From positions 1 to 29,621 of the IMG/VR virus record IMGVR_UViG_3300007276_000200: DNA of 29,621 nt; one strand, 5' to 3'. Below the pieces are notes generated by a model that had not been told where the DNA came from, made no database searches, and saw nothing but the letters and a program-made list of their open reading frames with translations. Origin of the DNA: a virus. Below, piece by piece: positions 260 through 23,013 of this stretch (the stretch's first letter is position 1; every line of letters starts with the position of its first letter). The position numbers were made by a program, and so were the translations under genes.

Positions 260-595
260 TTATTCCTTTATTAAGTTTATAAAATTATCCAACTCTATCA
301 CTGCATAGACCTTGCTGTGATTTCTTTTCATTACCAAAACAGGCGCTCTATCTGCACTGTTTTCTTCGGCTTGTGCTAAAGATTTCCATAGGTCTAATCT
401 CTCTACATTTTTACATTCGAAGCTGTACTTAATAATCTTACGAGCAGCAGGAGAAAGTACTATATCTTCTCCGCACATACCCATAGTTTGAGATTTAATA
501 TCATCTTCCTCTAGCTCAGGAAATGTTTCTCTTAGTATATCTCTTAGCATGTTTTGCAGTCTTCTGCCTTTAGCTTTCGCACTTTTTGCAGACAT
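260..595 (-). CDS. PD-(D/E)XK nuclease, Holliday-junction-resolvase-like
   Basis: This 111-residue protein has the core of a small PD-(D/E)XK nuclease: a basic N-terminal helix with KGRRLQ, then GEDIVLS with the first acidic residue near position 44, then FECKN giving the E-x-K pair near 59-61, and a following helix with a conserved-looking Gln (LAQAEE). Small phage enzymes of this shape (Hjc-like or generic PDDEXK endonucleases) cut branched DNA made in replication and recombination, which fits the primase and ERF genes in the same operon. The start is set by AAAAGGAGGGAATA before ATG. Exact substrate specificity cannot be read from the sequence. Confidence 0.75.
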   Translation of the reverse strand: MSAKSAKAKGRRLQNMLRDILRETFPELEEDDIKSQTMGMCGEDIVLSPAARKIIKYSFECKNVERLDLWKSLAQAEENSADRAPVLVMKRNHSKVYAVIELDNFINLIKE

Positions 596-1391: not shown

Positions 1392-1792
1392 ACGGTTTCA
1401 TCTCCATGTGCTTGCATTTTTACCTCTCCTGTTTTAGGGTTAAATACTGAAGTTCTGTTGTTATCTAAGCTATGTTTAACCTTTTTTCTTTCGTAGTCTT
1501 CTGACATAGCCCACAATAAACATAGATATACTATAGCATCTTTAATTCTGCCACCTACATCTTCTCTTTGTGACTTATGCCCCTTAACCCATGCATTTAT
1601 ACCATCAATATGCTTCAGAAGATAAACCATTAATGCTTGTTCTTTAGATATATCTAAGCTGTTAGATACTCTTTCAAAGTTAGCAAATATATTATCTTCT
1701 GTATGTGCATATTCTTTCTGGCCGGAATCTCTAGTGCTTTTTACTTCATCTATAATAAGCTTAAAGAATGAATCAAACTCCGATTTCTTCAT
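1388..1792 (-). CDS. MazG-like all-alpha protein (nucleotide-pool type)
   Basis: This 134-residue helical protein has the order seen in a widespread phage family related to MazG-like NTP pyrophosphohydrolases: GQKEYAH near residue 24, an NxFANF segment, VYLLKHIDGI near 57-66, then GRIKDAIVYLCLLWAM near 82-97 with acidic residues that could hold a metal. MazG-type enzymes hydrolyse (d)NTPs or modified nucleotides. Its position next to the primase-helicase fits nucleotide metabolism during replication. The start at 1792 has AAGGAGAG just upstream. The family placement is from memory of pattern, so moderate only. Confidence 0.5.
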   Translation of the reverse strand: MKKSEFDSFFKLIIDEVKSTRDSGQKEYAHTEDNIFANFERVSNSLDISKEQALMVYLLKHIDGINAWVKGHKSQREDVGGRIKDAIVYLCLLWAMSEDYERKKVKHSLDNNRTSVFNPKTGEVKMQAHGDETV

Positions 1793-3557
1793 AACTCTCC
1801 TTGATTATTTGACTATTTTTAACTGTTAATTTAACATCTAAATGCTCACGTTCACGATTTGCTTCACATCGTACTTGTAGCTGCTCAATAAGTCCTGTTG
1901 TCCTGCTTTTAGAAGGAATAACAGATAGTAACTTATTGGTATTGTATGCAGTTCTGAATGAGCCTTTAGCTGATGCTATATTCATACTACCTTCATGGAA
2001 TGCAGACTTAGTTATCTCACTAACAGCAAATACAATTACATTATGCCTAACTGCTAGCTCCATCATAGCTTGAGATGCCTCTTCTGTCTTCATATTAGGG
2101 TCTCTTTGCTTAGATTTAAACAAACCCATATGATCTACTACAACAATCTCTGGTTTAACAGGCAGCATAGATATTCGCTTTTCTAGTTCAGCAGCATATG
2201 GACAAGAGTAATCTACAGTTAACCATTTAAATCTTTTATCCATGCCATTTTGCATGCTTTGATAATGATTTCTTAAATCGTCTTCTGACCATCCCATTTC
2301 CATTTGTACAAACCTAGACCATATCTGTCGTGGTGACATTTCCATTTCTATAAAGTATGTAGGTCTCTTTAAGCCATTGACTATATTCTGCAATAGCATA
2401 GTCTTCATAGATTTAGGTGGTGCTTGTATAACAACTACTTCACCGGGATATATAGGAAAGTTTTCACCTTTAAATATATCTCCTAAGTCTATAGGTTTAA
2501 TGTCACTTCTAAGGAAATTAATTAAACTATCTTCCATAGATTTTGAATCCATGACTGATTGGCTCTTCTTAGACTTATACAACTTGCATGTTTCACTGCA
2601 ATGTTTATCCATAAGAGTGTCATTGCATCCATATCTATTGCCCTGCCCTCCATGAGATTCATAAGCACTTTTAATTATGCTTTCCATCTCCTTGACAGTA
2701 AACGGACTTTTAGCGTCATCTACTTGTTGTCTCCACTGCTCCATGACAATACGTACAGTTGACTCAGGATAGAGCCACCGAAACCAAGCAGAGATACGTA
2801 AAGCAGTTGCGTGACGTTCACCTTGTGCATTACTAGCAAGCATACTAGATATACAGGGGTAATTAACTGGATCAGGATTCCTGCCTTGACTAATAAAAGT
2901 AGGAGCTTTGACTTTTTCATCTTTATTCCTTTCTAAGACATCAAACACTGGTTCACACTCTAATTCAAAATTAGGTATATCTCCAGGCTTGTATGCTATT
3001 TTCTTTATAGATTCAAGTACATTTTCTTCATGCAGCACACTAGTTGGAACTATACACTTCCAAAGGTTAGCTTTTAGATTTTTAGTATTATTTACACGTA
3101 TTAATCTTATCTTATCTGTAACTGACGGATCTGCATAGTCAAATACACCAGCATTAGTTAATGCATCTTTTACCTTTAAGTGCAGGTTTTGATCAGGCTT
3201 CCAACGAAATGCAGTTCCAGGTATACCAAAATGAAAGCCTTTATTTCCGCTAAAGTATAACCTAAATGGTATTTGCAAATCATCAAGCAGTATGCTTAAC
3301 CCTATAGCTTTTTTTCTAGCGCTATCTAGATCATCGTTATCTTTTCCATCTACATCTAATATAAATTCATCAGGTATATAAACAAGCCCATCAAATCCAG
3401 ACAGACTATTATTCTTACTGAAAAACTCTTTTATATTTTCATCAAAATCATATAATGACATATAAGTATCTCTGTCAATATTCATCCAATCACATACATT
3501 CCCTGCATCTTGAAAGTAGTGTCTTTGTGCTAATCCAAACGCAAATTCTTTAATCAT
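1773..3557 (-). CDS. Primase-helicase fusion (AEP primase plus DnaB-like RecA ATPase)
   Basis: The 594 residues split in two. The N-terminal half is an archaeo-eukaryotic-type primase: LDVDG at 67-71 gives the metal-binding D-x-D, SGNKGFHF at 103-110 the second motif, and DKIRLIR at 148-154 the third. A cysteine module follows (C235, C311, C320, C324, with GERHATALR between), resembling the iron-sulphur or zinc modules attached to phage and plasmid AEP primases. The C-terminal half, from about 355, is a RecA-fold helicase with Walker A APPKSMKT at 379-386 and Walker B VVVDH at 471-475. The usual Walker A glycine before Lys is Met. It probably unwinds and primes at the phage fork. Start ATG 3557 follows AAGGAGATAAA. 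Confidence 0.88.
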   Translation of the reverse strand: MIKEFAFGLAQRHYFQDAGNVCDWMNIDRDTYMSLYDFDENIKEFFSKNNSLSGFDGLVYIPDEFILDVDGKDNDDLDSARKKAIGLSILLDDLQIPFRLYFSGNKGFHFGIPGTAFRWKPDQNLHLKVKDALTNAGVFDYADPSVTDKIRLIRVNNTKNLKANLWKCIVPTSVLHEENVLESIKKIAYKPGDIPNFELECEPVFDVLERNKDEKVKAPTFISQGRNPDPVNYPCISSMLASNAQGERHATALRISAWFRWLYPESTVRIVMEQWRQQVDDAKSPFTVKEMESIIKSAYESHGGQGNRYGCNDTLMDKHCSETCKLYKSKKSQSVMDSKSMEDSLINFLRSDIKPIDLGDIFKGENFPIYPGEVVVIQAPPKSMKTMLLQNIVNGLKRPTYFIEMEMSPRQIWSRFVQMEMGWSEDDLRNHYQSMQNGMDKRFKWLTVDYSCPYAAELEKRISMLPVKPEIVVVDHMGLFKSKQRDPNMKTEEASQAMMELAVRHNVIVFAVSEITKSAFHEGSMNIASAKGSFRTAYNTNKLLSVIPSKSRTTGLIEQLQVRCEANREREHLDVKLTVKNSQIIKESYEEIGV

Positions 3558-4161: not shown

Positions 4162-4653
4162 TTATCTTTTATGAGGTGCTGTTTTTAATGCACCATTACC
4201 GTCGTCATCTGCTTGAGCTACACCTACCATAGATGATAGTAGATATCTACGACCATATGTAGTAGCAGCTCCAACACCATGAGCATCTTTCTTGCTTATT
4301 GGCATTCTTATTTCGCTTTTAATCCATTCACCTGATGAATGCATTAACATAGATGTAATATAGAAACCGTTATCAGACGTATCCCATCTATTACCTTGTA
4401 CTAATGCAATCTCATTAGCATTTAATGCAGGCATTGCTACTTCTAATACTGTAGCTAAACTAGCATATTTGCTATTAAAGAATGGATTAGTGCTCTTACC
4501 CTCAACCATAGTCATTTTTGATTGTGCTTTAGCTAATGCTCCAGCTAACTTGCCTATTCCTTCTGACATTGTTGGCTCAAACGTTTCATAGCCAAAATCT
4601 TCATCAGGGGGCAGGTAATCTTCCACGGTTGTGGTTCCTTCTTCTTTAGACAT
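4162..4653 (-). CDS. ERF-family single-strand annealing recombinase
   Basis: This 163-residue protein carries the hallmarks of the ERF superfamily: FNSKYASLATVL near residues 59-70, a beta-rich middle, and GAATTYGRRYLLSSMVGV near 126-143, followed by the acidic QADDDGN. ERF proteins anneal complementary single strands in phage recombination and end-joining, usually with an SSB and a nuclease, both present in this operon. The protein is shorter than P22 Erf (about 200 residues), with little C-terminal extension. It is separated from the E1-like gene upstream by a terminator hairpin, so its transcription needs readthrough or a weak promoter in that gap. Confidence 0.85.
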   Translation of the reverse strand: MSKEEGTTTVEDYLPPDEDFGYETFEPTMSEGIGKLAGALAKAQSKMTMVEGKSTNPFFNSKYASLATVLEVAMPALNANEIALVQGNRWDTSDNGFYITSMLMHSSGEWIKSEIRMPISKKDAHGVGAATTYGRRYLLSSMVGVAQADDDGNGALKTAPHKR

Positions 4654-4747: not shown

Positions 4748-5407
4748 TTACGCCTTCATGACTGACTTTTCCAATAACATTGTGGGGAAATTAAATGAGA
4801 ATGATCTGTTAAATGGCTGTCCTGTAACAAGTTTCCTTACTGTGTTTGCTATCATACTACCTGACAAATTAGAGCAGTAACTTGTAGCCTTTGCATTGCA
4901 TGGTTCTGGGCTACCGCTCTCATCTGAGTACCAGGTATTTTTGTATTTCTTAACAGTAGGCTTATCAAACACGTATTGCTGATAGTGTTCTGCACCCATG
5001 CGGCCATCGATAATATGTAATGGCTTTACACCTGGAATGCTAAACAATGCCTCTACTGCTTCTAGTCTTGATGCCATAGAATCAAACCCTAGTATTACAA
5101 TATCTTTATCTCCTTGTGGGTAAAACTCAGAGAACCTTTCATTAAAAGTCCCTACTGTGAATACGCCTAAGCTTCTGAGATGATCTGATAATGCATCTAC
5201 TTTAGGTTTGTCTATGTCGTTAAAGGTATACTGTGATACACCTATGTTTACCTCTTCTACTTTATCCATATCATATAAACAAAACTGAGTAGCACCCATT
5301 CTTGCTATCTGTAGGGCTGCAGAGCTACCAATAGCCCCACAGCCTAAGATATGAAATGTAAAGTCTTCCAAGTTATTTACTAGCTCTGATGATCTTGTAT
5401 GTATCAT
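4748..5407 (-). CDS. E1-like (ThiF/MoeB/HesA) adenylyltransferase
   Basis: The 219-residue protein has a Rossmann glycine motif GCGAIG at 22-27, an acidic strand end YDMDKVE at 45-51, VNIGVSQY at 53-60 (the N and Q of the E1 family), DIDKPKVDAL at 64-73 with the ATP-binding lysines, and FDSMASR at 108-114 matching the D-x4-R loop. Cys170 and Cys178 are candidates for the thioester or zinc cysteines. Such enzymes adenylate the C-terminal glycine of a ubiquitin-like protein. It is short compared with cellular E1 and lacks fused E2 or Ubl domains. It overlaps the JAMM gene by one base (TAATG), so the two are made together. Confidence 0.85.
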   Translation of the reverse strand: MIHTRSSELVNNLEDFTFHILGCGAIGSSAALQIARMGATQFCLYDMDKVEEVNIGVSQYTFNDIDKPKVDALSDHLRSLGVFTVGTFNERFSEFYPQGDKDIVILGFDSMASRLEAVEALFSIPGVKPLHIIDGRMGAEHYQQYVFDKPTVKKYKNTWYSDESGSPEPCNAKATSYCSNLSGSMIANTVRKLVTGQPFNRSFSFNFPTMLLEKSVMKA

Positions 5408-6342
5408 TAGTCTACTCCAAACGATTCGTTATAAGATTTATAGTCCATCCAATCGTCTATTTCAGCTTCAACTTGAGCTTCACTTGTAAGATCGATTGCT
5501 ATATATTCATGAGGTGTTGCTAACATAACTTGAGATTCTAATACAGGCTCAGTTACTAGCTCTACTCTGTATATACTATTGTAAGTATTGTCAAGTAGTT
5601 TATTAACATCTTTAGCCATCGTAATCCAACCCTCATATGTTAATCTACCATCACAATATCTTTTATTCATCTCATCAACCATATTATAAGTGTAAATATA
5701 ATCAGGAGAATCACCAGATAACTCTTGGCTATACTTTAGACCACCAACTTTGGTATCCTTGGTATCGATTAGAGTCATCTGATTCGACTTTCCCTGAGTA
5801 TATGCTCCTTTATTGTAATGAGTATATTGAGGAGTAATAAGAGAACATTTATCAGCAACTTCATCTTGTATTTTTTGAGGAACTTTCCTCTCTTTAGTTA
5901 TGATAGTAAGGTCTACATCTTCATGAACTTCAAATGGTTTCCATACAGATACTCTTAGCTTGTATTCTTCTTTTAGATTTACCACTAAAGCAAAGCTAAA
6001 GTCACCATCTGAATATTCTTTGATAGCAGTTAAGTCTGTACCTGACCAGAAAGCCTTCATTGTGTGATGACTATGCCACCATACAAAGCGAAAGTTTTTC
6101 TTTTTGAGCTTAGTCCCTACCCTTGTATAATATAGCGCCAGATCATCCTTATCTAACACACAATTACCTGCACTAATTTGTTGCTTTAAGATAACTGGAT
6201 CTTTTAATTCCCAATCACCTTCATCATCTTCAATAGCTACTAACATACCGCCTATTTCAGACTTTTCAGTACTATATGCTGTTTCAGCATAACTTTGGAT
6301 TTTATTCCAGTCTCTTTCACTTATGTAAAAGTCTTGATTCAT
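5407..6342 (-). CDS. JAMM/MPN metalloprotease (deubiquitinase-like)
   Basis: The N-terminal half is a JAMM domain with the complete catalytic set: Glu29 in EIGGML, then His90-Ser-His92, Ser100 and Asp103, exactly H-x-H-x7-S-x2-D. JAMM enzymes cleave after the C-terminal glycine of ubiquitin-like proteins, to mature them or to remove them from targets. The C-terminal half (about 150-311) is mixed alpha-beta, acidic at the end and not recognisable; it may recognise a substrate. The gene lies one base after the E2-like gene and overlaps the E1-like gene by one base. Start ATG 6342 follows AAGGAGATAGG. Lambda-type tail assembly JAMM proteins are an alternative family, but this gene is not in a tail cluster. 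Confidence 0.88.
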   Translation of the reverse strand: MNQDFYISERDWNKIQSYAETAYSTEKSEIGGMLVAIEDDEGDWELKDPVILKQQISAGNCVLDKDDLALYYTRVGTKLKKKNFRFVWWHSHHTMKAFWSGTDLTAIKEYSDGDFSFALVVNLKEEYKLRVSVWKPFEVHEDVDLTIITKERKVPQKIQDEVADKCSLITPQYTHYNKGAYTQGKSNQMTLIDTKDTKVGGLKYSQELSGDSPDYIYTYNMVDEMNKRYCDGRLTYEGWITMAKDVNKLLDNTYNSIYRVELVTEPVLESQVMLATPHEYIAIDLTSEAQVEAEIDDWMDYKSYNESFGVD

Positions 6343-6343
6343 C

Positions 6344-7645
6344 CTATCTCCTTACGTCTACTGTGTTTACGCCTTCATACATTCGTAGTAATTCAGCTTC
6401 TGTTAATTGGTTTAGTCTTTCACCCTCTTGATCAGCTATTTCTCCACTATCATCTACTGTTTCTTGCATATATAAAGATCTATATGACAAACAATTATTA
6501 CGTATAGTGCATTCATATCTATCACAATATGAAGTTTCTTGATCTGGCTGTTCTTGGTTTAATACATTAGCATATCCGCAATTATCCATTCTACTTATAG
6601 GACTCATATTCCCAGTTGATTCCCATACTTCTGTTTGCATTTCAGGCCATATACCATGAAACATTTTATTGTATCCATTTAATGGTCCTGTACTGCCTAC
6701 ATTGAAGTTCTTCGTCCAGCTATCAAGATATGTAAATAATGCAGTGATATCACCTGTCCATGCAGCTTCTCTTATCTCAGTATCAAAGCTACCAAAACAT
6801 ACGTTATCAAACCCAGAACGTGTATTTTGCCCTGCATTAAATTCAACTTGCATTTGATCTCTATCCCATCTTGAGTTAGATATATAAGGAAATAATATCT
6901 CTGGTTCTTCAGGATGATATATAGCGCCAGTCCAGGGATTAGTATGACCACCTCCCATAGCTCCTTGTGTTATCCTAACGTTTCTGATTCTGTTCATCAC
7001 ATTCTTAACTAAATCAACACAAATCATTACATCCATGTTACCCATTGGTATTGCAACAGACTCACCGCCTATATTTATACTAGTTGTTACACCTTCTATA
7101 TAAACATGAAATGAAATAGCATGATTAGTTCCATTATAAGAACGTGAACTCATACCTCCATTAGTATGTAGGCCATGATACACAGATAAGTGCATATTAG
7201 GATATAATTCTATTGCACTAACTATAGTTTCTTCTATTTTAGTTTTATACTCAGCAAGAACGCGATTAACATCATCAGTATTATCCTGAAAACAAATACC
7301 ATTATTCCTTAGGAAGTATAGTTTGGTATCTATTTCATCTACTTTAGTTAAAAATTGATCTATACTCCATCTACCATTAGCAATTTGGTTTCTATATGTA
7401 GATACTTTATTCTTTTGTACATTAACATTAGATATTCTACCTGATTCTTCTGTTAGCTTTTTATAGAATCCAGGCTGCCATCTAAATGTAGGTGTACATC
7501 TAAAGTTAGTATTAAATCTTGAGTTTAAGTTATCTATTAAACCTATTACCTCTTCTTGTGGACCTAATGCTACTCGTTCTATGATTTCACTCATATTACT
7601 CATTCCATCAAGAAAGTTGTTTCTTGCATCAAGCGTTGTGTTCAT
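6344..7645 (-). CDS. Possible E2-like (ubiquitin-conjugating) protein, 433 aa
   Basis: No full-length family is recognised. Residues about 215-310 read like a divergent E2 core: a strand ending in GGGHTNPW (234-238 stands where E2-like proteins have His-Pro-His/Asn), YHP at 243-245, a variable stretch, then NVCFGSF at 281-287 giving a candidate catalytic Cys283, and a helix DITALFTYLDSW. A second cysteine group (C356, C374, C379, C385) near the end may bind metal. The N-terminal 200 residues are helical, then beta-rich, and of unknown role. It sits directly before JAMM and E1-like genes, the strongest argument for an E2 role. Start ATG 7645 follows AAGGAGATAACGC. Alternatively it could be an unrelated E1 target or adaptor. 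Confidence 0.5.
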   Translation of the reverse strand: MNTTLDARNNFLDGMSNMSEIIERVALGPQEEVIGLIDNLNSRFNTNFRCTPTFRWQPGFYKKLTEESGRISNVNVQKNKVSTYRNQIANGRWSIDQFLTKVDEIDTKLYFLRNNGICFQDNTDDVNRVLAEYKTKIEETIVSAIELYPNMHLSVYHGLHTNGGMSSRSYNGTNHAISFHVYIEGVTTSINIGGESVAIPMGNMDVMICVDLVKNVMNRIRNVRITQGAMGGGHTNPWTGAIYHPEEPEILFPYISNSRWDRDQMQVEFNAGQNTRSGFDNVCFGSFDTEIREAAWTGDITALFTYLDSWTKNFNVGSTGPLNGYNKMFHGIWPEMQTEVWESTGNMSPISRMDNCGYANVLNQEQPDQETSYCDRYECTIRNNCLSYRSLYMQETVDDSGEIADQEGERLNQLTEAELLRMYEGVNTVDVRR

Positions 7646-7826
7646 GCGTTATCTCCTTGCATTTAGGGCACTTAGCCTTTATTAATCCGTAATGAGGGAA
7701 ATCATTATAGTAGCTTTCTCCTCCTCTATTGTTGTATGGATCTGTAAATGGTGTTGAATTTTGCCAAACTTTTCTACAAGTCTGACAACTTTTTAAAGCG
7801 TCATCAAATACTTTATTTCTGCCCAT
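7629..7826 (-). CDS. Small zinc-ribbon protein, 65 aa
   Basis: Cys14-x-x-Cys17 and Cys53-x-x-Cys56 form two zinc knuckles separated by a loop rich in Tyr, Asn and Gly; a His-rich end (THEHNA) follows. Start ATG 7826 has AGGGAGAAGTA upstream and overlaps the stop of the preceding gene by one base. The gene overlaps the E2-like gene by 17 bases, so it belongs to the conjugation transcript. Ring-type E3 ligases need eight metal ligands; only four cysteines are visible, so this is a zinc ribbon rather than a RING. Confidence 0.65.
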   Translation of the reverse strand: MGRNKVFDDALKSCQTCRKVWQNSTPFTDPYNNRGGESYYNDFPHYGLIKAKCPKCKEITHEHNA

Positions 7827-8077
7827 TACTTCTCCCTTAGATAATATGAAAATAATGGCCCACAGTCTGGATCAAAATCTTCCCATTCTTTAAATACATT
7901 TTCTAGCCCGTTCCCTAGGAAGAATTTATCATAATATCCTATCCTAAAGTATAGCTCTTCAGATCCAGCACAGATACCCCACTTAAAGTCTGTCACTCCC
8001 TTCTCCAGGAGTATTTGTGTCATTAATATCTGTACGTACTTGTGTCTTAAATTTCCAGACGTGTTCTCTTTTATCAT
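7826..8077 (-). CDS. Hypothetical protein, 83 aa
   Basis: I set the start at ATG 8077 because GAGGAGG stands six bases upstream; an ATG at 8098 has no site. The protein is rich in aromatic and acidic residues (YFRIGYYDKFF, then EWEDFD) and looks globular. Its first 95 bases overlap the end of the winged-helix gene in another frame. No family is recognised. Confidence 0.6.
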   Translation of the reverse strand: MIKENTSGNLRHKYVQILMTQILLEKGVTDFKWGICAGSEELYFRIGYYDKFFLGNGLENVFKEWEDFDPDCGPLFSYYLREK

Positions 8078-8333
8078 ACTTGCCTCCTCGTAACTCATTG
8101 GTTTTACTTAACTTATCCTGATCAGTTAAAGTAGATATAGATCTTCTTATACTAGTAAATGGCCAATTTTTATTATATGTGCCTATTAGTATCTCTTCTA
8201 CTTCAACAGGGCTTAGACCGTCAGCATGTCTCCAAGTGTTAAATATATGTAATATTAATTGGTCTTGTGTTTTTGCATTAGATCTTGATTCATTTAGTCT
8301 TTCACCTGTTTCATTATTTGTATTGTAATACAT
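7983..8333 (-). CDS. Winged helix-turn-helix protein, 116 aa
   Basis: After a polar N-terminal tail, residues about 23-95 read as a winged helix: LILHIFNTW, a turn with GLSPVEVEEIL, then FTSIRRSISTLTDQDKL as the recognition helix and wing entry, and a basic KYDKREHVWKF strand. This is typical of small phage DNA-binding regulators. Start ATG 8333 follows AAAGGAGATATA; an upstream ATG at 8354 lacks a site. Its start overlaps the previous stop by one base. It could regulate phage or host transcription, target unknown. Confidence 0.6.
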   Translation of the reverse strand: MYYNTNNETGERLNESRSNAKTQDQLILHIFNTWRHADGLSPVEVEEILIGTYNKNWPFTSIRRSISTLTDQDKLSKTNELRGGKYDKREHVWKFKTQVRTDINDTNTPGEGSDRL

Positions 8334-8737
8334 TATATCTCCTTTGTTTTCCAAACTCTATGTTCAAAATGACCAACAGTTTCTATTCTGTAGTTATCTT
8401 TCATTAACTCTTTATATTTCCATCTGACACTAAATGGATTTCTGGGAGTTTTATTCTCTTTAATCCTTTTAGCTCTCACTATATCTCTCGCAAGAGACAT
8501 AATCCAACCTCTAACTGTAGTACCAGATCTATCTTTTATAAGAATCGACTCACCTGGTTTCATTGACTGCATAGCCTTTAAGCAATAGGATTTATAATTG
8601 TATTTACTTGCTGAACATTTTGCTTGACTTATAGGTGCTGGTAGGGGTACATCTGTATCAACGTCATGTACCATTCTTATATCTATATCTCTACATCCAC
8701 ATTTACTGCATATATATGCTTGTTTTAACTCTACCAT
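8333..8737 (-). CDS. Hypothetical Cys-rich protein, 134 aa
   Basis: The N-terminus has C10-x-x-C13-x-C15 (ICSKCGC), with further cysteines at 41 and 52, suggesting a zinc finger. The remainder is basic and contains GTTVRGWIMSLARD, followed by Lys/Arg-rich segments and an aromatic end, as in nucleic-acid-binding proteins. It overlaps its neighbours by 7 bases and 1 base. Start ATG 8737 has GGTGGAT upstream. Its function is not recognisable. Confidence 0.55.
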   Translation of the reverse strand: MVELKQAYICSKCGCRDIDIRMVHDVDTDVPLPAPISQAKCSASKYNYKSYCLKAMQSMKPGESILIKDRSGTTVRGWIMSLARDIVRAKRIKENKTPRNPFSVRWKYKELMKDNYRIETVGHFEHRVWKTKEI

Positions 8738-9099
8738 ATTTCAAATCCACCAGATTCTTTACAGAAATCAACAAATTTTACTACATTATTAGAGTCAAAA
8801 GGATATTTACTTGCCCATTCATCGTTAATTTCATCAACAGTAGCATCATATCCAGCTTTATGTAGATCAACAGATCCATCTTTTAGTCTTTCCTCTAATC
8901 TTTTAGCTATCTTTTCAGCTTTTGCTTTACTTATTTTTACGCCATCATTATAAGTACCGCCTTCAGCCTCTTTAATTGTTAATATATCATCACACTCATT
9001 ACAGACATATGTCCACAATGGACGCCAATACCATACATTATTTCTAAAGTATTCGCCTTTTTTTGATTTTGCTTTTGTTCCTAGTAAATCAAATCCCAT
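8731..9099 (-). CDS. Conserved-type phage hypothetical protein, 122 aa
   Basis: The N-terminus (MGFDLLGTK, then GEYFRNNVWYWRPLW) matches my memory of a phage protein family of unknown function in which a small aromatic cluster is followed by a Cys-x-x-Cys (VCNECDD) and a helical Lys/Glu-rich region. The end (FVDFCKESGGFEIW) has the look of a C-terminal helix and strand. It starts at ATG 9099, overlapping the stop before it as TAATG. No activity is known to me. Confidence 0.6.
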   Translation of the reverse strand: MGFDLLGTKAKSKKGEYFRNNVWYWRPLWTYVCNECDDILTIKEAEGGTYNDGVKISKAKAEKIAKRLEERLKDGSVDLHKAGYDATVDEINDEWASKYPFDSNNVVKFVDFCKESGGFEIW

Positions 9100-9389
9100 T
9101 ATTCAACCCATCCTGTTTTGCGTTTTTGTTTAGTTGCCTCTTTACCTATATCTTCAGCATTATATCTTATGTAAGAATATAGATCTTTTTCTATTTTATG
9201 TTTGGGTATGTTAGTATATAACCACATTAGATAAGAAGGATCTTCCTCTCTTACATCATGAATAGTCATTCCTTTGTACTTACCAAACCTCATAGCGTTT
9301 GCACCATACAATTTCTTTTGATCAGCGCATATACATTTTTCTTTTTGTGCGCACTCTTGACAAGCACCACAACTCCAACATTTGCTCAT
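9099..9389 (-). CDS. ExoX-C/DUF3820-like small protein with Cys-rich head
   Basis: Residues 35-60 match the domain found at the end of exonuclease X and in many stand-alone phage proteins: FGKYKGMTIHDV followed by DPSYLMWL. Its function is thought to be nucleic-acid related but is not settled. The first 21 residues hold six cysteines (positions 4, 7, 10, 13, 19, 21), which is unusual and suggests a metal-binding extension. Start ATG 9389 follows TGGAGATAAT. There is no nuclease domain in the protein. Confidence 0.7.
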   Translation of the reverse strand: MSKCWSCGACQECAQKEKCICADQKKLYGANAMRFGKYKGMTIHDVREEDPSYLMWLYTNIPKHKIEKDLYSYIRYNAEDIGKEATKQKRKTGWVE

Positions 9390-9464
9390 ATTATCTCCAT
9401 TGATTATACTAACTGCTTAAGCTCGGTAGTTCTATTTCATACTGACGAGAGACTTATAAAGCAG

Positions 9465-10340
9465 CTAGAATATATATCTTATTGTGTTCCAAGGGATTAT
9501 ATTATTATGCAGCTCTTTAAACTGATTGATATATTTAGATTTATAAAATCTATTATATCTTATGTTCTCACTTCCATATTGAGATCTTTTTGTTTCCTGT
9601 TTCCCAGGCTGCCATAAATAGTTTTCACCTTTAGTATTATTTTGTACGTTGTAATTATGCATTTTGTGATTATGAGTAAGAAATATACATTCTGCTAATA
9701 CTTTGTCTCTTATTTTAACATCTACATAATCATTTACCATAACAAATAGCTTTTTGTAGTCATCAAGCCATCCATCATAATGCATAATAGGACTATAATT
9801 AATATGTATATCATATCCAGCATCATAAAAAGCATTAATAGCATTTAATCTATCTTCTATTTTAGATGTATTTGGCTCTAATTGATCTGATAAATGTTGT
9901 GGCATTACACTAAATCTTATACGTATACGTCTTTTATCTTGATCATCTATTGGGTTATAGTCTAGTAAGTCAGTATTTACATATTTAGTAGCCATTGTGG
10001 CAAATACAGGAAGTCCACACATTTTAAAGAAATCAAATATTAACTTCCAGTTGTGATACTTAGCATGCAATACAAAGTCTTCGTTACAGCTTATATCATA
10101 TGTCCAGAAATCATTATGTGTTTGATTAGATACTTTGGGCCCTAACATAAATGCATGATCATAAATTGCATCTAGTATATTACCAGGATTGTTTGCTATA
10201 GTTAAGCCATTTGGCACATGTCTACGCATGTAACAATAATTACATTTATACATACATCCAAAGCCAAAAGAAGGGCTAATATAGTCACTGCTACGTCCTG
10301 AGTCACGTATTATCATAGCTTTACGCTTTACATATTTCAC
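9465..10340 (-). CDS. Radical SAM protein, spore-photoproduct-lyase-like
   Basis: The 291-residue protein holds the radical-SAM cluster motif C29-x3-C33-x2-C36 in GFGCMYKCNYCYMRR. The tyrosine-rich context and following layout recall the spore photoproduct lyase (SplB) family, which reverses a thymine photoproduct by a 5'-deoxyadenosyl radical. Further expected features are an acidic N-D strand (ISCNEDFVLHA) and IRFSVMP, then a long C-terminal region. The start is GTG at 10340, fixed by AAGGAGTTACA six bases before it. Possible roles are repair of UV-damaged phage DNA or another DNA or protein modification; the sequence does not decide. It is the first gene after the gene-free structured region. 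Confidence 0.7.
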   Translation of the reverse strand: MKYVKRKAMIIRDSGRSSDYISPSFGFGCMYKCNYCYMRRHVPNGLTIANNPGNILDAIYDHAFMLGPKVSNQTHNDFWTYDISCNEDFVLHAKYHNWKLIFDFFKMCGLPVFATMATKYVNTDLLDYNPIDDQDKRRIRIRFSVMPQHLSDQLEPNTSKIEDRLNAINAFYDAGYDIHINYSPIMHYDGWLDDYKKLFVMVNDYVDVKIRDKVLAECIFLTHNHKMHNYNVQNNTKGENYLWQPGKQETKRSQYGSENIRYNRFYKSKYINQFKELHNNIIPWNTIRYIF

Positions 10341-10361
10341 TGTAACTCCTTGTTTTATTAA

Positions 10362-10792
10362 AATGCAAGGTGCGCTAGCTGTCTTAGTAGGATTTCGTTC
10401 ATGGCAAGGAATCTTTAAGATTCAATCAGTACCATGCAAACACCATACCTTGCATTAATTTAGTCCCCTACTCTCTGTTAATTCGTGGTCAACAGATAGC
10501 AAAAATCACTTGATATTAACTAGTAGGGGAATAGGAATGCACTCTGGAACCGAGCTTAAGAAGGGTTACTTAAGATTGATCCCCAGTTTTATGCCAGAGT
10601 GCGGTAAGAATACCATAGTAACAAATTATACAGTATGTCTCCTGGCATCGCATGCGGTTCACATCTCACCTGTTATGTTCAAGTCTAAGACCAGGCAGCT
10701 ATGCTATTCTACACTATCAGTAGATTTGGCTCACTATATCTTAGAAACTATGGTTAAATTTTGGGCAGCTTATTTTATATCTCCTACCCAAA
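10362..10792 (+). ncRNA. Candidate large structured RNA (or origin), no gene in 10341-10806
   Basis: This 466-base gap holds no supportable protein but many inverted repeats in series: 10362-10371 with 10447-10456 (10 pairs); 10464-10472 with 10522-10530 (9); 10539-10547 with 10594-10602 (9); 10612-10619 with 10747-10754 (8); 10760-10765 with 10787-10792 (6). Inside are smaller hairpins: 10400-10404/10432-10436, 10409-10414/10418-10423, 10474-10479/10491-10496, 10555-10560/10569-10574, 10708-10712/10720-10724. Flanking wobbles (10372/10446, 10538/10603, 10759/10793) are G-U only if the plus strand is the RNA, against the direction of the neighbouring genes. It is not tRNA-like. Size and nested form recall phage RNAs such as GOLLD and ROOL, but no sequence identity is claimed. 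Confidence 0.5.
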
Positions 10793-10806
10793 GATCGTGG
10801 AGACAA

Positions 10807-11019
10807 TTAAATAGTTTTGCCACCAGTTTTATCGTTATTTACAAATGCAACGATATCACCTTCTTGTAGTTGATATGAATTGTTTACATTCACACCACCT
10901 ACAGCTGCTGAAGCATTAGAGTTAATACTCATTTCTTCACGCAGTTCACACATTGTTTCAGATCGGGTTTCTTGTGTTACAAACCCACCACCTGATAGTA
11001 CTTTTATAGTTTTAGACAT
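10807..11019 (-). CDS. Possible ubiquitin-like (beta-grasp) protein ending in GG-KTI
   Basis: The 70-residue protein reads like a ThiS/MoaD/ubiquitin-type beta-grasp: a first strand KTIKVLSGGG, a helix around ETMCELREEM, then VNVNNSYQLQEGDIVAFV, which follows the family pattern of strand, turn, Leu-x-x-Gly-Asp, strand. It ends in TGG followed by Lys-Thr-Ile; removal of these three residues would expose a diglycine at 66-67. The JAMM enzyme downstream could do this, and the E1-like enzyme could then activate it. The start at 11019 is fixed by AAGGAGACAAAAA. It lies about 3.2 kb upstream of the E2-like gene on the same strand. Assignment is by pattern only; no ubiquitin identity is visible. Confidence 0.5.
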   Translation of the reverse strand: MSKTIKVLSGGGFVTQETRSETMCELREEMSINSNASAAVGGVNVNNSYQLQEGDIVAFVNNDKTGGKTI

Positions 11020-14303: not shown

Positions 14304-15004
14304 GCAGACTAGAGCATTACATATACGAAGATGTATCTGAGCTGCCTAAAGACCTTATAATTTATGAAGATTGGCGACAAGCCAAAATAGGCGACTGGGT
14401 AAAGGCCGATGATGGTTGCTATATAGAAATATTAAGATCAGGAGATATGAAGGATACCTCAGGTAAATCTCAATATTATGTAGGCACTTGTACTGGTACA
14501 TTTCCAGCTAGGAAATCTATGAAGATGGATACTAGCCGAAGAGAAAATATATACTCTTTTGGAGGAGTAATGGCTGGAGAGGTTAGAGAAAAGCTTAGCA
14601 AGAGCGAGTCTTTATTTGTAGCATATGTTACTGCAGGACTAGAGCATGATGAAGCTTATCTAAAAGCATTTAAAACTAAAAACAAGAGATATGCAGTAAA
14701 GAAAGCATCTTCTCTTATAAGAACGAGCAGGGTGAGGACAGCTATGAAAGAAGAACTAAAGCCAGTTTTAGAAGAGCTGGATCTAGACGAAACATTTGTA
14801 CTCAAAGCAATCAAGGAGGTTGTTCTCTCTTCCGATAAGGATGAAACTCGTCTTAAGGCCCTTTTTAAACTGGCTGATATTATGGATATGGAAGATAAAA
14901 ATAAAACAACAGTCACTCAGGTATCTGGTGCATTATTTCAGGGATTTACTCCTGAAGCATTAGATTCGGTAGAAAGACCAAAGGAGATAGAAGATGGCAA
15001 ATAA
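14300..15004 (+). CDS. terS: Terminase small subunit with N-terminal DWV-type domain
   Basis: The first standard ATG is at 14447, yet the 49 codons before it, from 14300, are clearly coding: EDWRQAKIGDWVKADDGCY continues across it to YYVGTCTGTFP and MDTSRREN. This N-terminal domain is followed by a helical terminase-small-subunit core: LSKSESLFVAYV, a helix-turn-helix-like GLEHDEAYLKAF, then VRTAMKEELKPVLEEL and SDKDETRLKALFKLADIM. TerS recognises phage DNA and hands it to TerL. No ATG, GTG or TTG exists in frame between the upstream stop (14276-14278) and 14447, and AGGAG lies too close to that ATG. The start is thus a frameshift from the previous gene, a rare ATT at 14285, or a sequence error. 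Confidence 0.7.
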   Translation: MGRLEHYIYEDVSELPKDLIIYEDWRQAKIGDWVKADDGCYIEILRSGDMKDTSGKSQYYVGTCTGTFPARKSMKMDTSRRENIYSFGGVMAGEVREKLSKSESLFVAYVTAGLEHDEAYLKAFKTKNKRYAVKKASSLIRTSRVRTAMKEELKPVLEELDLDETFVLKAIKEVVLSSDKDETRLKALFKLADIMDMEDKNKTTVTQVSGALFQGFTPEALDSVERPKEIEDGK

Positions 15005-15317
15005 AAGTGAAATAGGATCAGGTACATTTGAGGGAGAAGTATATTATTCTTCTACCATGCCTAAAGGAAAAAAAGATGATTGGCCTTTTAAATATGATCG
15101 AGAACTAGAAAAGACAATGGGCTCTGCAAGAACTGCAGATAATGATAGCTTAAAAGCTATACAAAAAACATTAATATCTATGAAGTTATTAGAACCTGGT
15201 CAAGATGATGGTTATTATGGAAACAGAACTAAAGGTGCTGTAAAAAGATACCTACTTAATACGCAGCCATCAATGTTTGATGCAATTAAAGAATCGGACT
15301 TTAATATATTTAAATAA
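14994..15317 (+). CDS. Peptidoglycan-binding-domain protein, 107 aa
   Basis: Residues about 52-85 match a PG_binding_1 module: LKAIQKTLISMKLL, then GQDDGYYGNRTKGAVKRY, with the DG-x-YG-x-x-T-x-x-AV signature. Such modules bind cell-wall peptidoglycan. There is no catalytic domain in this protein, but an M15 peptidase lies just after terL, so the two may act as a split lysin. The gene lies between terS (overlap of 11 bases, AAAGGAG upstream) and terL (shares one base), which is an unusual place for a wall-binding protein. Confidence 0.7.
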   Translation: MANKSEIGSGTFEGEVYYSSTMPKGKKDDWPFKYDRELEKTMGSARTADNDSLKAIQKTLISMKLLEPGQDDGYYGNRTKGAVKRYLLNTQPSMFDAIKESDFNIFK

Positions 15318-16873
15318 TGTCTAATATAAATTTACACAACGTCTCTGAGATGGAAGAGCAATTAAAGCTTGCATCTGAGGACTTAATAGCATTCGGTAAA
15401 TTATTTCTACCTGATGATTTTATGAGGAGTGAAACTCCTTTTTTTCATTATGAAGTAGGAGATGCATTAATGAATAAAGATTATAGGCAGTTAGGAGTAA
15501 TATTACCTCGTGGTCACGGCAAAACAGTTCTTACAAAATGCAATATTGTGCATGATTTTGTTTTTGCACAAGGCCCATTATTTTATGGGTGGGTTGCTGC
15601 GTCTTCTAAAATATCTGTTCCAAATTTAGATTATGTAAAATATCACTTGGAGTATAATGATAAAATACGTTATTATTTCGGAGATTTAAAAGGGAGAAAA
15701 TGGACAGAAGATGATATTGAGCTTAAAAACGGCTGCAAACTTATCTCGAAGTCAAACCTTTCAGGTATACGTGGCGGAGCTAAGTTGCATAAAAGATACG
15801 ATCTCATTATCCTTGACGATTTTGAGGACGAAAATAATACCGTTACGCCTGAGTCTAGGGCTAAAATCGCAAATCTTGTTACAGCGGTGGTTTTCCCTGC
15901 TTTGGAACCTGCTGACGGGAGGCTTCGTATTAATGGTACGCCTGTTCACTTCGATGCGTTTACTACAAGGATACTTAACGGTCATGTCAAAGCTAAAACA
16001 AAAGGTGAAGACTATTCTTGGAAAGTAATAACTTACAAAGCATTGCAAGAAGATGGGACACCCCTATGGCCTTCATGGTTTGGCCACAAGGAAATGGAGA
16101 GAAAGAAGAAGTTTTATTCAGACTCTGGGCAACCTCAAAAATTCTATCAAGAATATATGATGGAGGTTCAGAATGAAGAAGATTCTATCTTTAATAGAAA
16201 CCATATTAAATACTGGGATGGAAATTTTTATAGAGACGAGGACACAGGCATTAGTTATATTAAAACGGATCTCGGAGATGAAAAGCCGGTCAACGTTTTT
16301 GTCGGGGTCGATCCTGCTACGGATAGTCTTCGTAGGGATAGCGATTTCTCTGTTTTACTCGCTTTGGCTGTCGATAATGACAATAATTGTTATGTTCTTG
16401 ATTATCTACGGAAGCGGTCTTTACCTGTACTTGGTATACCAGGCGATTCTAAAAAAGGTATTGTGGACCATATATTTGACTATAACAAAATATATAGCCC
16501 AAGCTTATTCTGTATTGAAGACACTACTATGTCGAAGCCAGTTTTTCAAGCTATTAATGCAGAAATGCGTAGAAGGAATGACTTTACTGTCAAGTATACT
16601 GCAGAAAAACCAGGGAATAGGCAGTCTAAAAGGGATAGGATTCAAGAAATTCTTGCACAAAGGTTTTCTGTGGGCGGGGTACATGTTAAGAAAACTCAAT
16701 ATGACCTTCAGAGGGAAATAATGACATTTGGGCCTCGGATGGGACATGATGATACTATAGATGCATTAGCATATGCATGTAAATTTGCATATCCTTTAAA
16801 ATCTGTAAAGAAAGATAAAAGAGATGCTTGGAAAAAACATAGACCTAAGCCAAAGAGCTGGGTAACAGCATAG
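15317..16873 (+). CDS. terL: Terminase large subunit
   Basis: The 518-residue protein has the two parts of the packaging motor. The ATPase has Walker A LPRGHGKT at 63-70, Walker B LIILDDFED at 163-171, and the SGIRGGA loop just before it. The nuclease part begins with FVGVDPATD near 328-336 (first catalytic Asp), followed by CIEDTTM and near the end GHDDTIDALAYA. It cuts concatemers and pumps DNA into the prohead through the portal. Length is usual. It starts on the last base of the PG-binding gene. Confidence 0.95.
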   Translation: MSNINLHNVSEMEEQLKLASEDLIAFGKLFLPDDFMRSETPFFHYEVGDALMNKDYRQLGVILPRGHGKTVLTKCNIVHDFVFAQGPLFYGWVAASSKISVPNLDYVKYHLEYNDKIRYYFGDLKGRKWTEDDIELKNGCKLISKSNLSGIRGGAKLHKRYDLIILDDFEDENNTVTPESRAKIANLVTAVVFPALEPADGRLRINGTPVHFDAFTTRILNGHVKAKTKGEDYSWKVITYKALQEDGTPLWPSWFGHKEMERKKKFYSDSGQPQKFYQEYMMEVQNEEDSIFNRNHIKYWDGNFYRDEDTGISYIKTDLGDEKPVNVFVGVDPATDSLRRDSDFSVLLALAVDNDNNCYVLDYLRKRSLPVLGIPGDSKKGIVDHIFDYNKIYSPSLFCIEDTTMSKPVFQAINAEMRRRNDFTVKYTAEKPGNRQSKRDRIQEILAQRFSVGGVHVKKTQYDLQREIMTFGPRMGHDDTIDALAYACKFAYPLKSVKKDKRDAWKKHRPKPKSWVTA

Positions 16874-16882
16874 GAGAATAGA

Positions 16883-17275
16883 ATGCCAAGATTTGGGAAA
16901 AGAAGTAAAGAGAGATTATTGACATGCGATGAAAAATTGCAAAAAGTTTTTAATGAAGTAATTAAACATGTAGATTGTAGTGTTTTGGAAGGACACAGAG
17001 GTGAAGAAAGGCAAAATAAATTGGTTGACGAGGGGAAAAGTCAAGTTCGCTACCCTAATGGCAGGCATAACGCTATGCCTTCTAACGCAGTTGACGTTAC
17101 ACCTTATCCCGTCGACTGGGATGACAGAGAGCGCCAAACTCTTTTTGCTGGGTTTGTCCTTGGGGTGGCTAGTGGGATGGATATTAATCTTCGGTGGGGC
17201 GGAGACTGGGACCAAGACTTCCAAGTAATGGATAATAAATTTGATGACTTTCCACATTTTGAGGTAAAGGACTAA
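16883..17275 (+). CDS. M15 peptidase, endolysin-like (L-Ala-D-Glu type)
   Basis: The 130-residue protein has the zinc-site layout of M15 peptidases: HRGEERQN near 38, NGRHNAMPSNAVDV with His62 and Asp71, and DDFPHFEV with Asp122 and His125 near the end. These cleave peptide cross-bridges of peptidoglycan, so it is a likely lysis enzyme. There is no signal peptide or wall-binding domain; export would need a holin. RBS AGGAGAAT lies before ATG 16883. It is followed closely by the portal gene, and shares the packaging region with the PG-binding protein. Confidence 0.85.
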   Translation: MPRFGKRSKERLLTCDEKLQKVFNEVIKHVDCSVLEGHRGEERQNKLVDEGKSQVRYPNGRHNAMPSNAVDVTPYPVDWDDRERQTLFAGFVLGVASGMDINLRWGGDWDQDFQVMDNKFDDFPHFEVKD

Positions 17276-17276
17276 T

Positions 17277-19577
17277 ATGGCCAAGCAAGATAAAAAAGCT
17301 CTTAGAGTTAAGGAAGTTTATACTAATGCAAATTCTAGGACTAGACAGCAATGGGAGTATATAAACCAAAAAGGCTTTGATTTTGCAAATGACAATCAAC
17401 TTACAGAAAGAGAAGAAGCTGATTTAACTGAACAAGGTATGCCTACATTTACTATTAACAGAATACTACCTGTTGTAGAGATGTTAAATTTTTATGCTAC
17501 GGCAAACCCACCTAGATGGCAAGCTATTGCAACTGAAGGTTCTGATACAGACGTTGCTGCAGTATTTAGTGATATGGCTGATTATATTTGGAATTTATCA
17601 GATGGTATCTCATTGTACAGCAACGCTGTAAATGATGCTATTACAAAATCCATAGGATATTTGCTTGTCACTGTAGACCCAGATAGTGATAATGGCATGG
17701 GTGATGTAAAGATACAGCAACCAGATCCATTTGATGTTTATGTAGATCCCAAGTCAAGAGATATACTATTTAAGGATGCTGCATTTATTACAGTTAGAAA
17801 AGTATTACCTAAGTCTCATGTAATTAAATTATTTCCTCAGTTTGAAGCTAAAATTAAAAAAGCTAGCTCAGATGACAATACTGACTGGAGTTATACTGAA
17901 AAAGTTCAGGGAGGATCTCAAAAAGACTTTACATATAAAGATATAGGAGAGAATGAATCTGTTGACCCTTTAACTGGAGAGACTGATAAGCTAATAGAGT
18001 TATTCGAAATGTATGAAAAAGTAAAGGTAGCATACATGAATGTGTTTTACAGAATACCTCCAAATGAGCAAGAGCTACAACAAATACAGCAACAAGTTCA
18101 GGTTCAATTACAAGAAATGCAACAGGAGATGCATGTTCAATTAATGGAGCAAGATCAGCAAATGCAAGCAGCTGTTCAATCAGGAGAGATGCTACCAGAA
18201 AGATATAAGCTTGAATTAGAAAAAGCTCAAAAAATGATGCAAGATCAATTAGCTGCTGCAGAGCAACAATTTATGAGTGAATTACAGGCTCAAGCATCAA
18301 AGATTGAAAATATGATTATATCAGAAAAAGAATTTAAAGTATTTAAATCTGATCCAAAGAATGAAGCATTAATTGTTGATGCTATTAAGTTTTATGGAGA
18401 TAGGATTAAATTGACATGTGTATCAGGAGATACTACTCTATATGAAAATATCTTACCCGACAATATAACTGAGTATCCAATTATTCCTATACACTTCAAG
18501 TGGACTGGAACTCCATATCCTATCTCTGCCGTTTCTCCTTTAATAGGGAAACAAAGAGAAATAAATAAATCTCATCAAATAATGGTTCATAATGCTTCTT
18601 TAGGTTCTAGTTTAAGATTCTTGCATGAAGAAGGATCTATTGATACAGATTACTGGGAAAAGTATTCAAGTGCTCCTGGAGCATTACTTCCTATACGGCC
18701 AGGGGCCCAAGCTCCTACTCCTATAATGCCAGCACCTCTTGCTAATGCATTTTACACGATCGTGCAAGAAGGTAAGGGAGACATGGAGTATCTTGCTGGT
18801 ATATATTCATCAATGCAAGGCGATACAGGGCAACAGCATGATACATATAGAGGTATGCTGGCTATAGATGAGTATGGTACAAGGCGAGTTAAGCAATGGT
18901 TAAAGAATTGTATTGAACCAGCCTTAAGGCAAACTGGAGAAGTTGTAAAGCAGTTTTCTCAAGCTGTATACACAGCACATAAAGTTGTTAGAATAGTCCA
19001 GCCAAATAATATCAATGAAGAAAAACACGCTGAAATTAACATGCCAATATATAATGACCTAGGTGAAGCTATTGGTAAGTTTAATGATTATTCTGCAGCC
19101 AAGTTTGATGTAAGAATTGTTGCTGGATCTACACTACCAGTTAATAGATGGGCTTATCTAGAAGAGCTTAAGTCATTAATGCAATTAGGCATTGTTGATG
19201 ATGTAGCTGTTTTAGCAGAAACAGATATTAGGAATAAATCAAATATTATAAAAAGAAAGTCATTATATGCGCAACTACAAGGCCAGGTATCTCAATTATC
19301 CGAAGCTGTTAAAGATAAAGATGGCACTATTGAGACGCTTGAGCGCCAACTTGTACAAGCGGGCATTAAGCAAAAAGTAATGCAAGCCGAAGTTGAAGTC
19401 TCAAAGCAAAAAAGTGATTTAAAAGGAGCAGCTCAGCAGCAATATCTTGAAACTGAAGCTCAGCAAAAATTATTGAGGAATGTAATGAAAAACGAAGGTG
19501 AGACTAAAAAGAAAGAATTAAGTCTTGCTGCAGAAAGTATTAAAAATTCCTTGACTAATAATAACGAAAAATCGTAA
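17277..19577 (+). CDS. Portal protein, P22-like
   Basis: At 766 residues this is of the size of P22-type portals. The N-terminus has QQWEYINQKGFDF, then MPTFTINRILPVVEML and ATANPPRWQA near 63-84, then PDPFDVYVDPKSRD, all typical of the family. A Gln-rich coiled region (about 265-350) contains many Q-E-M repeats, and a second helical Gln/Lys-rich tail ends the protein. The portal is the ring at the head vertex through which DNA enters and leaves. Start ATG 17277 follows AAAGGAC; the gene before ends two bases earlier. Confidence 0.85.
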   Translation: MAKQDKKALRVKEVYTNANSRTRQQWEYINQKGFDFANDNQLTEREEADLTEQGMPTFTINRILPVVEMLNFYATANPPRWQAIATEGSDTDVAAVFSDMADYIWNLSDGISLYSNAVNDAITKSIGYLLVTVDPDSDNGMGDVKIQQPDPFDVYVDPKSRDILFKDAAFITVRKVLPKSHVIKLFPQFEAKIKKASSDDNTDWSYTEKVQGGSQKDFTYKDIGENESVDPLTGETDKLIELFEMYEKVKVAYMNVFYRIPPNEQELQQIQQQVQVQLQEMQQEMHVQLMEQDQQMQAAVQSGEMLPERYKLELEKAQKMMQDQLAAAEQQFMSELQAQASKIENMIISEKEFKVFKSDPKNEALIVDAIKFYGDRIKLTCVSGDTTLYENILPDNITEYPIIPIHFKWTGTPYPISAVSPLIGKQREINKSHQIMVHNASLGSSLRFLHEEGSIDTDYWEKYSSAPGALLPIRPGAQAPTPIMPAPLANAFYTIVQEGKGDMEYLAGIYSSMQGDTGQQHDTYRGMLAIDEYGTRRVKQWLKNCIEPALRQTGEVVKQFSQAVYTAHKVVRIVQPNNINEEKHAEINMPIYNDLGEAIGKFNDYSAAKFDVRIVAGSTLPVNRWAYLEELKSLMQLGIVDDVAVLAETDIRNKSNIIKRKSLYAQLQGQVSQLSEAVKDKDGTIETLERQLVQAGIKQKVMQAEVEVSKQKSDLKGAAQQQYLETEAQQKLLRNVMKNEGETKKKELSLAAESIKNSLTNNNEKS

Positions 19578-19595
19578 CTTAAATAGGAGAGTATA

Positions 19596-20459: not shown

Positions 20460-20476
20460 ATAAATACTGTCTATCC
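20454..20476 (+). other. Hairpin at the scaffold-coat junction
   Basis: GGGTAGA at 20454-20460 pairs with TCTATCC at 20470-20476 (seven pairs with one G-U). It includes the scaffold stop codon and has no T run after it. It lies upstream of the coat gene ribosome binding site (CAGGAGG) and could affect the stability of the coat mRNA. Confidence 0.45.
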
Positions 20477-20507
20477 AAACTTAACGATAAAATCAGGAGG
20501 ATAGACT

Positions 20508-21983: not shown

Positions 21984-21993
21984 GAGGTAAATG

Positions 21994-22419: not shown

Positions 22420-22430
22420 GGAGGTAACTC

Positions 22431-22922: not shown

Positions 22923-22949
22923 TAGCTAACAGTAAAACAAATAAATCTG

Positions 22950-22997
22950 CCCCCTCTCGTCTAGGAGTATTCTCTCCCCAGGAGGGGGGGTGGGTTT
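22950..22997 (+). terminator. Intrinsic terminator after the head-protein genes
   Basis: CCCCCTC at 22950-22956 pairs with GAGGGGG at 22982-22988 around a 25-base loop that can fold further, and GGTGGG then TTTT (22994-22997) follow. The G/C-rich arm is striking in AT-rich surroundings. It would end or limit the head transcript before the adaptor genes. The large loop lowers certainty. Confidence 0.6.
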
Positions 22998-23013
22998 TGA
23001 TTAAAGGAATCAT

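Follow-up and report, generated by a model that had tools for sequence, protein, structure and literature searches.

Does a phage genome encode a complete pathway for attaching a ubiquitin-like protein to other proteins and, if so, on what would it act? This question is raised by a viral record of 29,621 nucleotides (IMG/VR record IMGVR_UViG_3300007276_000200; the whole 29.6-kb stretch is called the window below). Four open reading frames (ORFs) of its minus strand had been annotated, from the sequence alone, as a ubiquitin-like modifier (Ubl), an E2-like conjugating protein, a JAMM peptidase and an E1-like activating enzyme (Table 1). Our analysis indicates that they probably constitute a complete phage-encoded and reversible ubiquitin-like conjugation pathway, performing true protein conjugation. 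This is the best reading of the set because the Ubl has a predicted beta-grasp fold, no E1-JAMM pair was found without its partners, and Cys283 of the E2-like protein falls on the catalytic cysteine of E2 enzymes.

Conservation of the four-gene set

The four ORFs lie on one strand within 6.3 kb, as annotated. The JAMM and E1 genes overlap in TAATG, the junction already noticed in the initial annotation, and strong AAGGAG-type ribosome sites precede the Ubl, E2 and JAMM genes. The set adjoins an Erf gene, upstream of it and on the same strand. Genes of DNA metabolism occupy the minus strand of the window, and the terminase, portal and capsid genes the plus strand.

A scan with the JAMM protein returned 258 related viral stretches, from which 80 loci were kept; a query with the E2-like protein added five loci, four being duplicate contigs. 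To assess co-occurrence, we took the viral contigs that extend more than 4.5 kb beyond JAMM on its upstream side, 44 after removal of redundancy. Co-oriented E1, E2-like, Ubl and JAMM genes were present in 44/44 contigs (36 JAMM clusters at 90% identity), and the order Ubl-E2-JAMM-E1 was found in 43 of them. Loss of the Ubl and E2-like genes from phages that keep E1 and JAMM, which had been named beforehand as contrary evidence, was seen in none. Association of the quartet by chance is excluded. The position of the Ubl gene farther upstream holds for the window and not as a rule; in most relatives no more than about 180 bp separate it from the E2 gene.

The ratios of nonsynonymous to synonymous substitution rates (dN/dS) against four near relatives were 0.06-0.09 for E1, 0.13-0.22 for JAMM, 0.07-0.20 for the Ubl and 0.23-0.44 for E2, the fastest-evolving of the four. 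Since these values lie at about 0.06-0.44, each gene is maintained, and all four are under purifying selection.

Signatures of the four proteins

The AlphaFold2 model of the Ubl (pLDDT, predicted local distance difference test, 84) has the order E-E-H-E-E-E and a disordered tail. Foldseek matched it to Mth1743, MoaD, TtuB, Caldiarchaeum ubiquitin and human ubiquitin with a probability of 1.00. A structure other than beta-grasp had been fixed in advance as a reason to abandon the annotation; the model and its matches gave the beta-grasp fold of Ubl modifiers. The protein ends in K64-T65-G66-G67 (about 10819-10830) followed by the three-residue tail K-T-I, as had been read from its 70 residues, and so has an exposable C-terminal Gly-Gly. 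K-x-G-G was found in 50/50 distinct Ubl sequences; the tail behind it was absent in 7, of 1-3 residues in 32 and of up to 60 residues in two. ThiS was matched by 24 of 39 Ubl relatives (best 1.9e-5). The two Ubls with a 60-residue tail (L001:674-1111 and L003:6013-6450) deserve a separate remark: the tail had no counterpart in the window (tblastn) or in the other loci searched, and it is possibly a Ubl-fused peptide that JAMM releases.

The E1-like enzyme consists of a single ThiF adenylation domain (residues 9-207; PF00899, 1e-16) with a GxGxxG Rossmann motif, that is, the ThiF/MoeB-type domain of E1 enzymes. Its profile matches were UBA6, UBA5, MccB, ThiF and Cap2, the Cap2-type similarity being weak. 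Cys170 (codon 4898-4900), in E-P-C-N-A-K-A-T, is the candidate thioester-forming cysteine by sequence comparison. The motif P-C-x-x-K-x-T was present in 84/85 viral loci, the sole exception being a truncated ORF, and Cys170 aligns with the single conserved cysteine of the E1s of crAss-like phages, which read C-S-Y-K-Q-T there. This form resembles the canonical E1 motif, P-x-C-T-x-K/R. The E1 tree contained separate clades of the window group (93/99), of crAss-like and Flavobacterium phages (97/99) and of the bacterial and archaeal loci described below (99/96), with some long branches.

These families could also point to a sulfur-carrier system: a ThiF-like enzyme would thiocarboxylate the Ubl, a ThiS/MoaD-type carrier serving a metabolite or tRNA, and the E2-like ORF would be something else. 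ThiS/MoaD are indeed the best sequence families for the Ubl and ThiF for the E1, MoaD-like proteins and TtuB are top fold matches, and a role of this kind is implicit in the name "thiamine biosynthesis protein" used in databases. We regard this as very improbable, as an E2-like protein with an invariant cysteine and a JAMM peptidase are always present and the cysteine motif of the E1 is of the transthiolating kind. Also, ThiG, MoaE, rhodanese and cysteine desulfurase were not recognised in the window proteins scanned, which were part of the ORFs.

In the JAMM peptidase, E29 and H90-S-H92-x7-S100-x2-D103 (6034-6075) are invariant in the alignment of relatives, which bears out the full set of catalytic residues claimed for it and corresponds to the E plus HxHx7SxxD zinc site of JAMM/MPN+ peptidases. 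The pattern H-x-H-x7-S-x2-D was found in 86/86 viral loci. Prok-JAB matched at 3e-4, just short of the Pfam cut-off, and the PADLOC JAB model at 2e-6; the best PDB profile match was archaeal Rpn11 (5e-4). The site is also intact in all seven relatives with a Ubl that stops at Gly-Gly. As it is kept where the Ubl has no tail, JAMM would do more than maturation: on these residues, it may be predicted to mature the Ubl and probably to remove the tag.

The candidate catalytic Cys283 of the E2-like protein (codon 6797-6799) stands in P253-Y-I...C283-F-G. Across 46 relatives Cys283 and Gly285 are the sole invariant residues; P253, I255, W310, P321 and a C-terminal cysteine cluster (C356 to C385 in the window) are nearly so. 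In the structural model, a helix is followed by a meander of three strands, another strand, the loop with the cysteine and a pair of helices, in the order found in UBC (ubiquitin-conjugating) domains. Taken alone, the protein gave nothing meaningful in Pfam, PHROGs, NCBIfam or PADLOC, the phage E2 alignment gave chance matches only against PDB profiles, and Foldseek against BFVD retrieved mostly unnamed viral proteins. Because direct hhalign comparisons of the phage E2 with gp78 of crAss-like phages or with a single Synechocystis E2 failed, the link to known E2s had to pass through E2s of cellular genomes.

These came from a JAMM profile scan of bacterial and archaeal genomes, which yielded 11 loci (L118-L128, called bin loci below) from Myxococcota, other proteobacteria, Verrucomicrobia, Calditrichota, KSB1, a Lokiarchaeota bin and a Natrialbaceae bin. 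An E2-like ORF with H-P-H/P...C-x-G lies beside JAMM in 11/11 of them and an E1 gene in 10, the remaining contig ending inside the JAMM gene; the nine aligned bin Ubls mostly end in G-G plus 0-2 residues. The phage E2 family aligned with the bin E2s by hhalign (probability 96.6, E 6e-10), cysteine on cysteine. The score of 76.7 compares with a maximum of 18.4 in 100 column shuffles and with 28.9 for the reversed profile, and an unrelated profile pair gave no signal. The bin E2 core in turn had 27 matches among 177,635 PDB sequences, all of them ubiquitin- or SUMO-conjugating enzymes, with H-P-H-x-x-x-x-G-x-x-C aligned over H-P-N-x-x-x-x-G-x-x-C; the E2 of locus L119 touches UQ_con at the corresponding position. 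Cys283 is in this way in register with the UBC cysteine (Cys283 to HPH...C to HPN...C). Each of these profile steps is moderate, and because they add up, the window protein is likely an E2.

Two features of the bin loci were seen in passing. An 8-kb contig of the Lokiarchaeota bin, viral or cellular, carries a Ubl with a KGGRA end, an E2 with HPHV...CLG, JAMM and E1 in the same order (L127:1719-4887). In several E2s of loci L119-L128, CxxC-type clusters form long repeats at the C-terminus, which may be modules of an E3-like or metal-binding kind built into the protein; the phage E2s keep a single cluster.

Table 1. Position of the four genes and of neighbouring features in the window
Feature	Position	Strand	Evidence
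E1-like activating enzyme, 219 aa	4748..5407	-	PF00899, E1 profile matches, P-C-x-x-K-x-T
JAMM/MPN+ metalloprotease, 311 aa	5407..6342	-	invariant catalytic residues, Rpn11 by profile, Prok-JAB
E2-like conjugating protein, 433 aa, UBC-like core about residues 120-330	6344..7645	-	hhalign, invariant C283
Ubl, 70-aa beta-grasp modifier	10807..11019	-	AlphaFold2, Foldseek, K-x-G-G, AAGGAG before ATG
RusA-like resolvase	260-595	-	RusA in 38 loci
Primase/DnaB-like helicase (context, possible target)	1773..3557	-	PHROG 19, PHROG 16345, Pfam DnaB_C; homologues in 75 loci
Erf-like single-strand annealing protein directly downstream of the set (context, possible target)	4162..4653	-	PHROG 2324 5e-36; homologues in 47 loci
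65-aa zinc-ribbon-like ORF (CxxC ... CxxC) directly upstream of the E2 gene	7629..7826	-	homologues in 11 loci

Related phages and known systems

A tblastn search with the E1 retrieved 75 annotated phage records, chiefly Bacteroides crAss-like phages and Flavobacterium psychrophilum phages. Phages of a crAss-like family of the human gut carry a more diverged set. It was found in 11 crAss-like genomes, of which nine are placed in Steigviridae and two are unclassified; there, primase is followed by gp79-like, gp78-like, metalloprotease, "thiamine biosynthesis protein", gp75-like and uracil-DNA glycosylase genes. The E1 and JAMM proteins are homologous to those of the window (hhalign, E 3e-35 and 5e-11). 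H-S-H and C-x-G are invariant in the gp78 family, and gp79 has a beta-grasp-like start and a K-K-I-x-S-G end. As their scores against the bin E2s and the window Ubl, respectively, are weak, gp79 is a probable Ubl and gp78 a probable E2. The Flavobacterium phages carry the crAss-type set in the same four-gene order, and in both groups it is surrounded by primase, uracil-DNA glycosylase and exonuclease genes.

Descriptions of prokaryotic operons with Ubl, E2, JAB and E1 go back to 2006, with experimental work on Bil and CBASS (PMC1779556; PMC11354881; PMC10097602), and phages have been credited with the Ubl-JAB pair of lambda tail operons (PMC1779556). The initial annotation likened the window set to Bil and PRTRC-type systems. 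The gene content bears out this likeness, whereas the features that define membership of either are lacking. Like BilABCD, the set combines Ubl, E1, E2 and JAMM in one operon. BilA has two Ubl domains, BilB a CEHH motif and BilD inactive and active adenylation domains (PMC11354881), whereas the window has a single 70-aa Ubl, no conserved Glu/His/His after C283 and a single-domain 219-aa E1; also, Bil is a host-encoded defence system. The NCBIfam models PRTRC_A and PRTRC_ThiF scored 13.9 and 20.5 bits in the window against cut-offs of 101.8 and 144.75 bits, and no other PRTRC model matched. We take the PRTRC plasmid system to correspond to operon type 6d. This type (Iyer, Burroughs and Aravind 2006) shares with the window a small Ubl ending in Gly, an E2-like protein, JAB and E1, each encoded by its own gene, but differs by an extra N-terminal domain in JAB and an additional helical gene (PMC1779556), as well as in the E2 motif and phage location of the window set. 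By the sequence features compared, the window set is outside both Bil and PRTRC.

Other systems are similar in part. Type II CBASS Cap2/Cap3 and other E1-E2 defence fusions share the E1 adenylation fold, the E2 catalytic cysteine and a JAB partner, whereas the window has separate E1 and E2 genes, a free Ubl and no recognised cGAS-like gene. The archaeal Caldiarchaeum ubiquitin/Rpn11 cassette also comprises Ubl, E1, E2 and an Rpn11-type JAMM; the window set differs in being phage-borne and in having no recognised gene for a small RING E3. The bin operons, on host or mobile-element contigs, have the same gene order and homologous E1, JAMM, E2 core and Ubl, but their E2s carry the classical HPH[VI]...C[LWF]G motif and, in several cases, longer Cys-rich tails; we found no published name for them. 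Discussion of complete E1-E2-Ubl-JAMM sets in prokaryotes has until now, to our knowledge, concerned systems of host defence or of plasmids. No report of full Ubl-conjugation sets in phages was found in the literature searched, outside of which lay subscription journals and preprints; the crAss001 structural paper does not mention gp75-gp79 in its text, which is uninformative. Within these limits of the literature search, the whole Ubl-E2-JAMM-E1 set in phages is a new form of a known prokaryotic operon type.

Cultured crAss-like phages thus already carry the set under the labels "thiamine biosynthesis", "metalloprotease" and "hypothetical". If our reading is true, a phage and host kept in the laboratory, crAss001 and Bacteroides intestinalis, would permit a direct test of a viral Ubl-tagging pathway. 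The data also add an E2 family missed by the family libraries, and the series of relatives is useful for tracing the origin of E2-dependent tagging.

Some observations concern these phages only. A gene of unknown family, gp75 of crAss001 (L088:6651-7463), follows E1 in the Steigviridae genomes viewed and is possibly a fifth component or a target. In Flavobacterium phage Fpv1 (L089:2677-4969) the oppositely oriented endonuclease gene gp55 splits JAMM into two ORFs, which looks like a homing insertion; JAMM is uninterrupted in another Fpv record (L093). In crAss-like phage cr106_1 (L113:195-1398) an HNH endonuclease gene interrupts the gp79-like gene, the probable Ubl, and the halves match the family on either side. 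Finally, the E1 of a human gut phage contig (MT835544; L116:2028-5127) is very divergent; before it come a JAMM-like ORF (HSHVNM...SGVD) and another ORF containing PQPHI...QCFRG, motifs that suggest a further branch of the quartet.

Proposed pathway and possible targets

In the proposed pathway, JAMM would trim the Ubl to ...K-T-G-G where a tail exists. Judging from homology and the conserved motif, the E1 would then adenylate the Gly-Gly end with ATP and take the Ubl as a thioester on Cys170. The Ubl would pass to Cys283 of the E2 and from there onto a lysine or other nucleophile of the target, selected perhaps by the N-terminal helical part and Cys-rich C-terminus of the E2. JAMM would also remove the tag, a role in line with its invariant residues in the tail-less relatives. 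The gene set suggests that phages carrying it reversibly tag proteins during infection.

Several points weigh against this proposal. A UBC-like core in the E2-like protein, whose absence had been named beforehand as contrary evidence, went unrecognised in a Foldseek comparison of the E2 model (pLDDT 78) with the PDB, which gave no significant fold match, and it is the two-step profiles that put Cys283 on the E2 catalytic cysteine. The phage E2 (F/H-P-Y/F-I) does not conserve the His and Asn of the eukaryotic HPN motif, and in direct comparison with the PDB the linking bin E2 family reached an E-value of just 0.045 at best. Position, motif and weak profile scores are all that connects the E2 and Ubl of the crAss-like phages with those of the window. 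Also, no E3 gene was recognised beside the window quartet, for which reason the E2's own ends may select the targets. The E2-like ORF might be an unrelated cysteine protein, in a system of only Ubl, E1 and JAMM, a reading that fits the lack of any Pfam, PDB or Foldseek match for the phage family alone. It appears unlikely in view of the profile link to the HPH...C E2s with its null control, the UBC-like strand-helix order around Cys283 and the strict co-occurrence of the genes.

If the set conjugates, the surroundings bear on its target. The annotated location in a phage replication arm was confirmed, as primase/helicase, Erf and RusA genes lie alongside on the same strand; three bin loci are near ParB, RadC or PD-(D/E)XK genes. 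Because such a setting repeats in several phage and bacterial branches, replication/recombination proteins are the target class we favour, and we tentatively propose that those of the phage or host are the main targets. The main competing view is that conjugation is directed at a host protein, for takeover or to inactivate a defence protein. Phages need such functions, the bacterial relatives act in phage-host conflict (CBASS Cap2, PMC10097602; Bil, PMC11354881), and E2 evolves fastest of the four, as would a protein whose surface follows changing targets; against this, placement in the replication/recombination module is conserved across several lineages and no defence homologue was found beside the quartet. 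A host target is possible, short of probable. Self-modification of virion or tail proteins during assembly has a precedent in lambda, whose tail proteins I and K pair a Ubl-like domain with a JAB peptidase on a phage genome (PMC1779556). These belong to a tail operon, have extra fused domains and are described with just Ubl and JAB/NlpC, without E1 or E2 (PMC1779556), whereas the quartet is part of the replication arm and the head genes (14447-29084) are on the other strand, which makes a role in assembly improbable.

A wider hypothesis favours replication/recombination proteins too. Conjugation would be a core function of the replication module in at least two distantly related phage groups (that of the window and Steigviridae/Flavobacterium), a divergent E2 with built-in target selection reversibly tagging these proteins without an E3. 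We consider it speculative and rather unlikely; if true, viruses would run a control of the replisome in the style of ubiquitin and SUMO without an E3.

Two neighbours of the quartet remain to be described. The zinc-ribbon-like ORF, restricted to close relatives, is possibly an accessory. Between the Ubl and E2 genes of the window lies a spore-photoproduct-lyase-like radical SAM gene (9465-10340; Pfam SPL 2.6e-23), which is present in 14 related loci at variable positions around the quartet.

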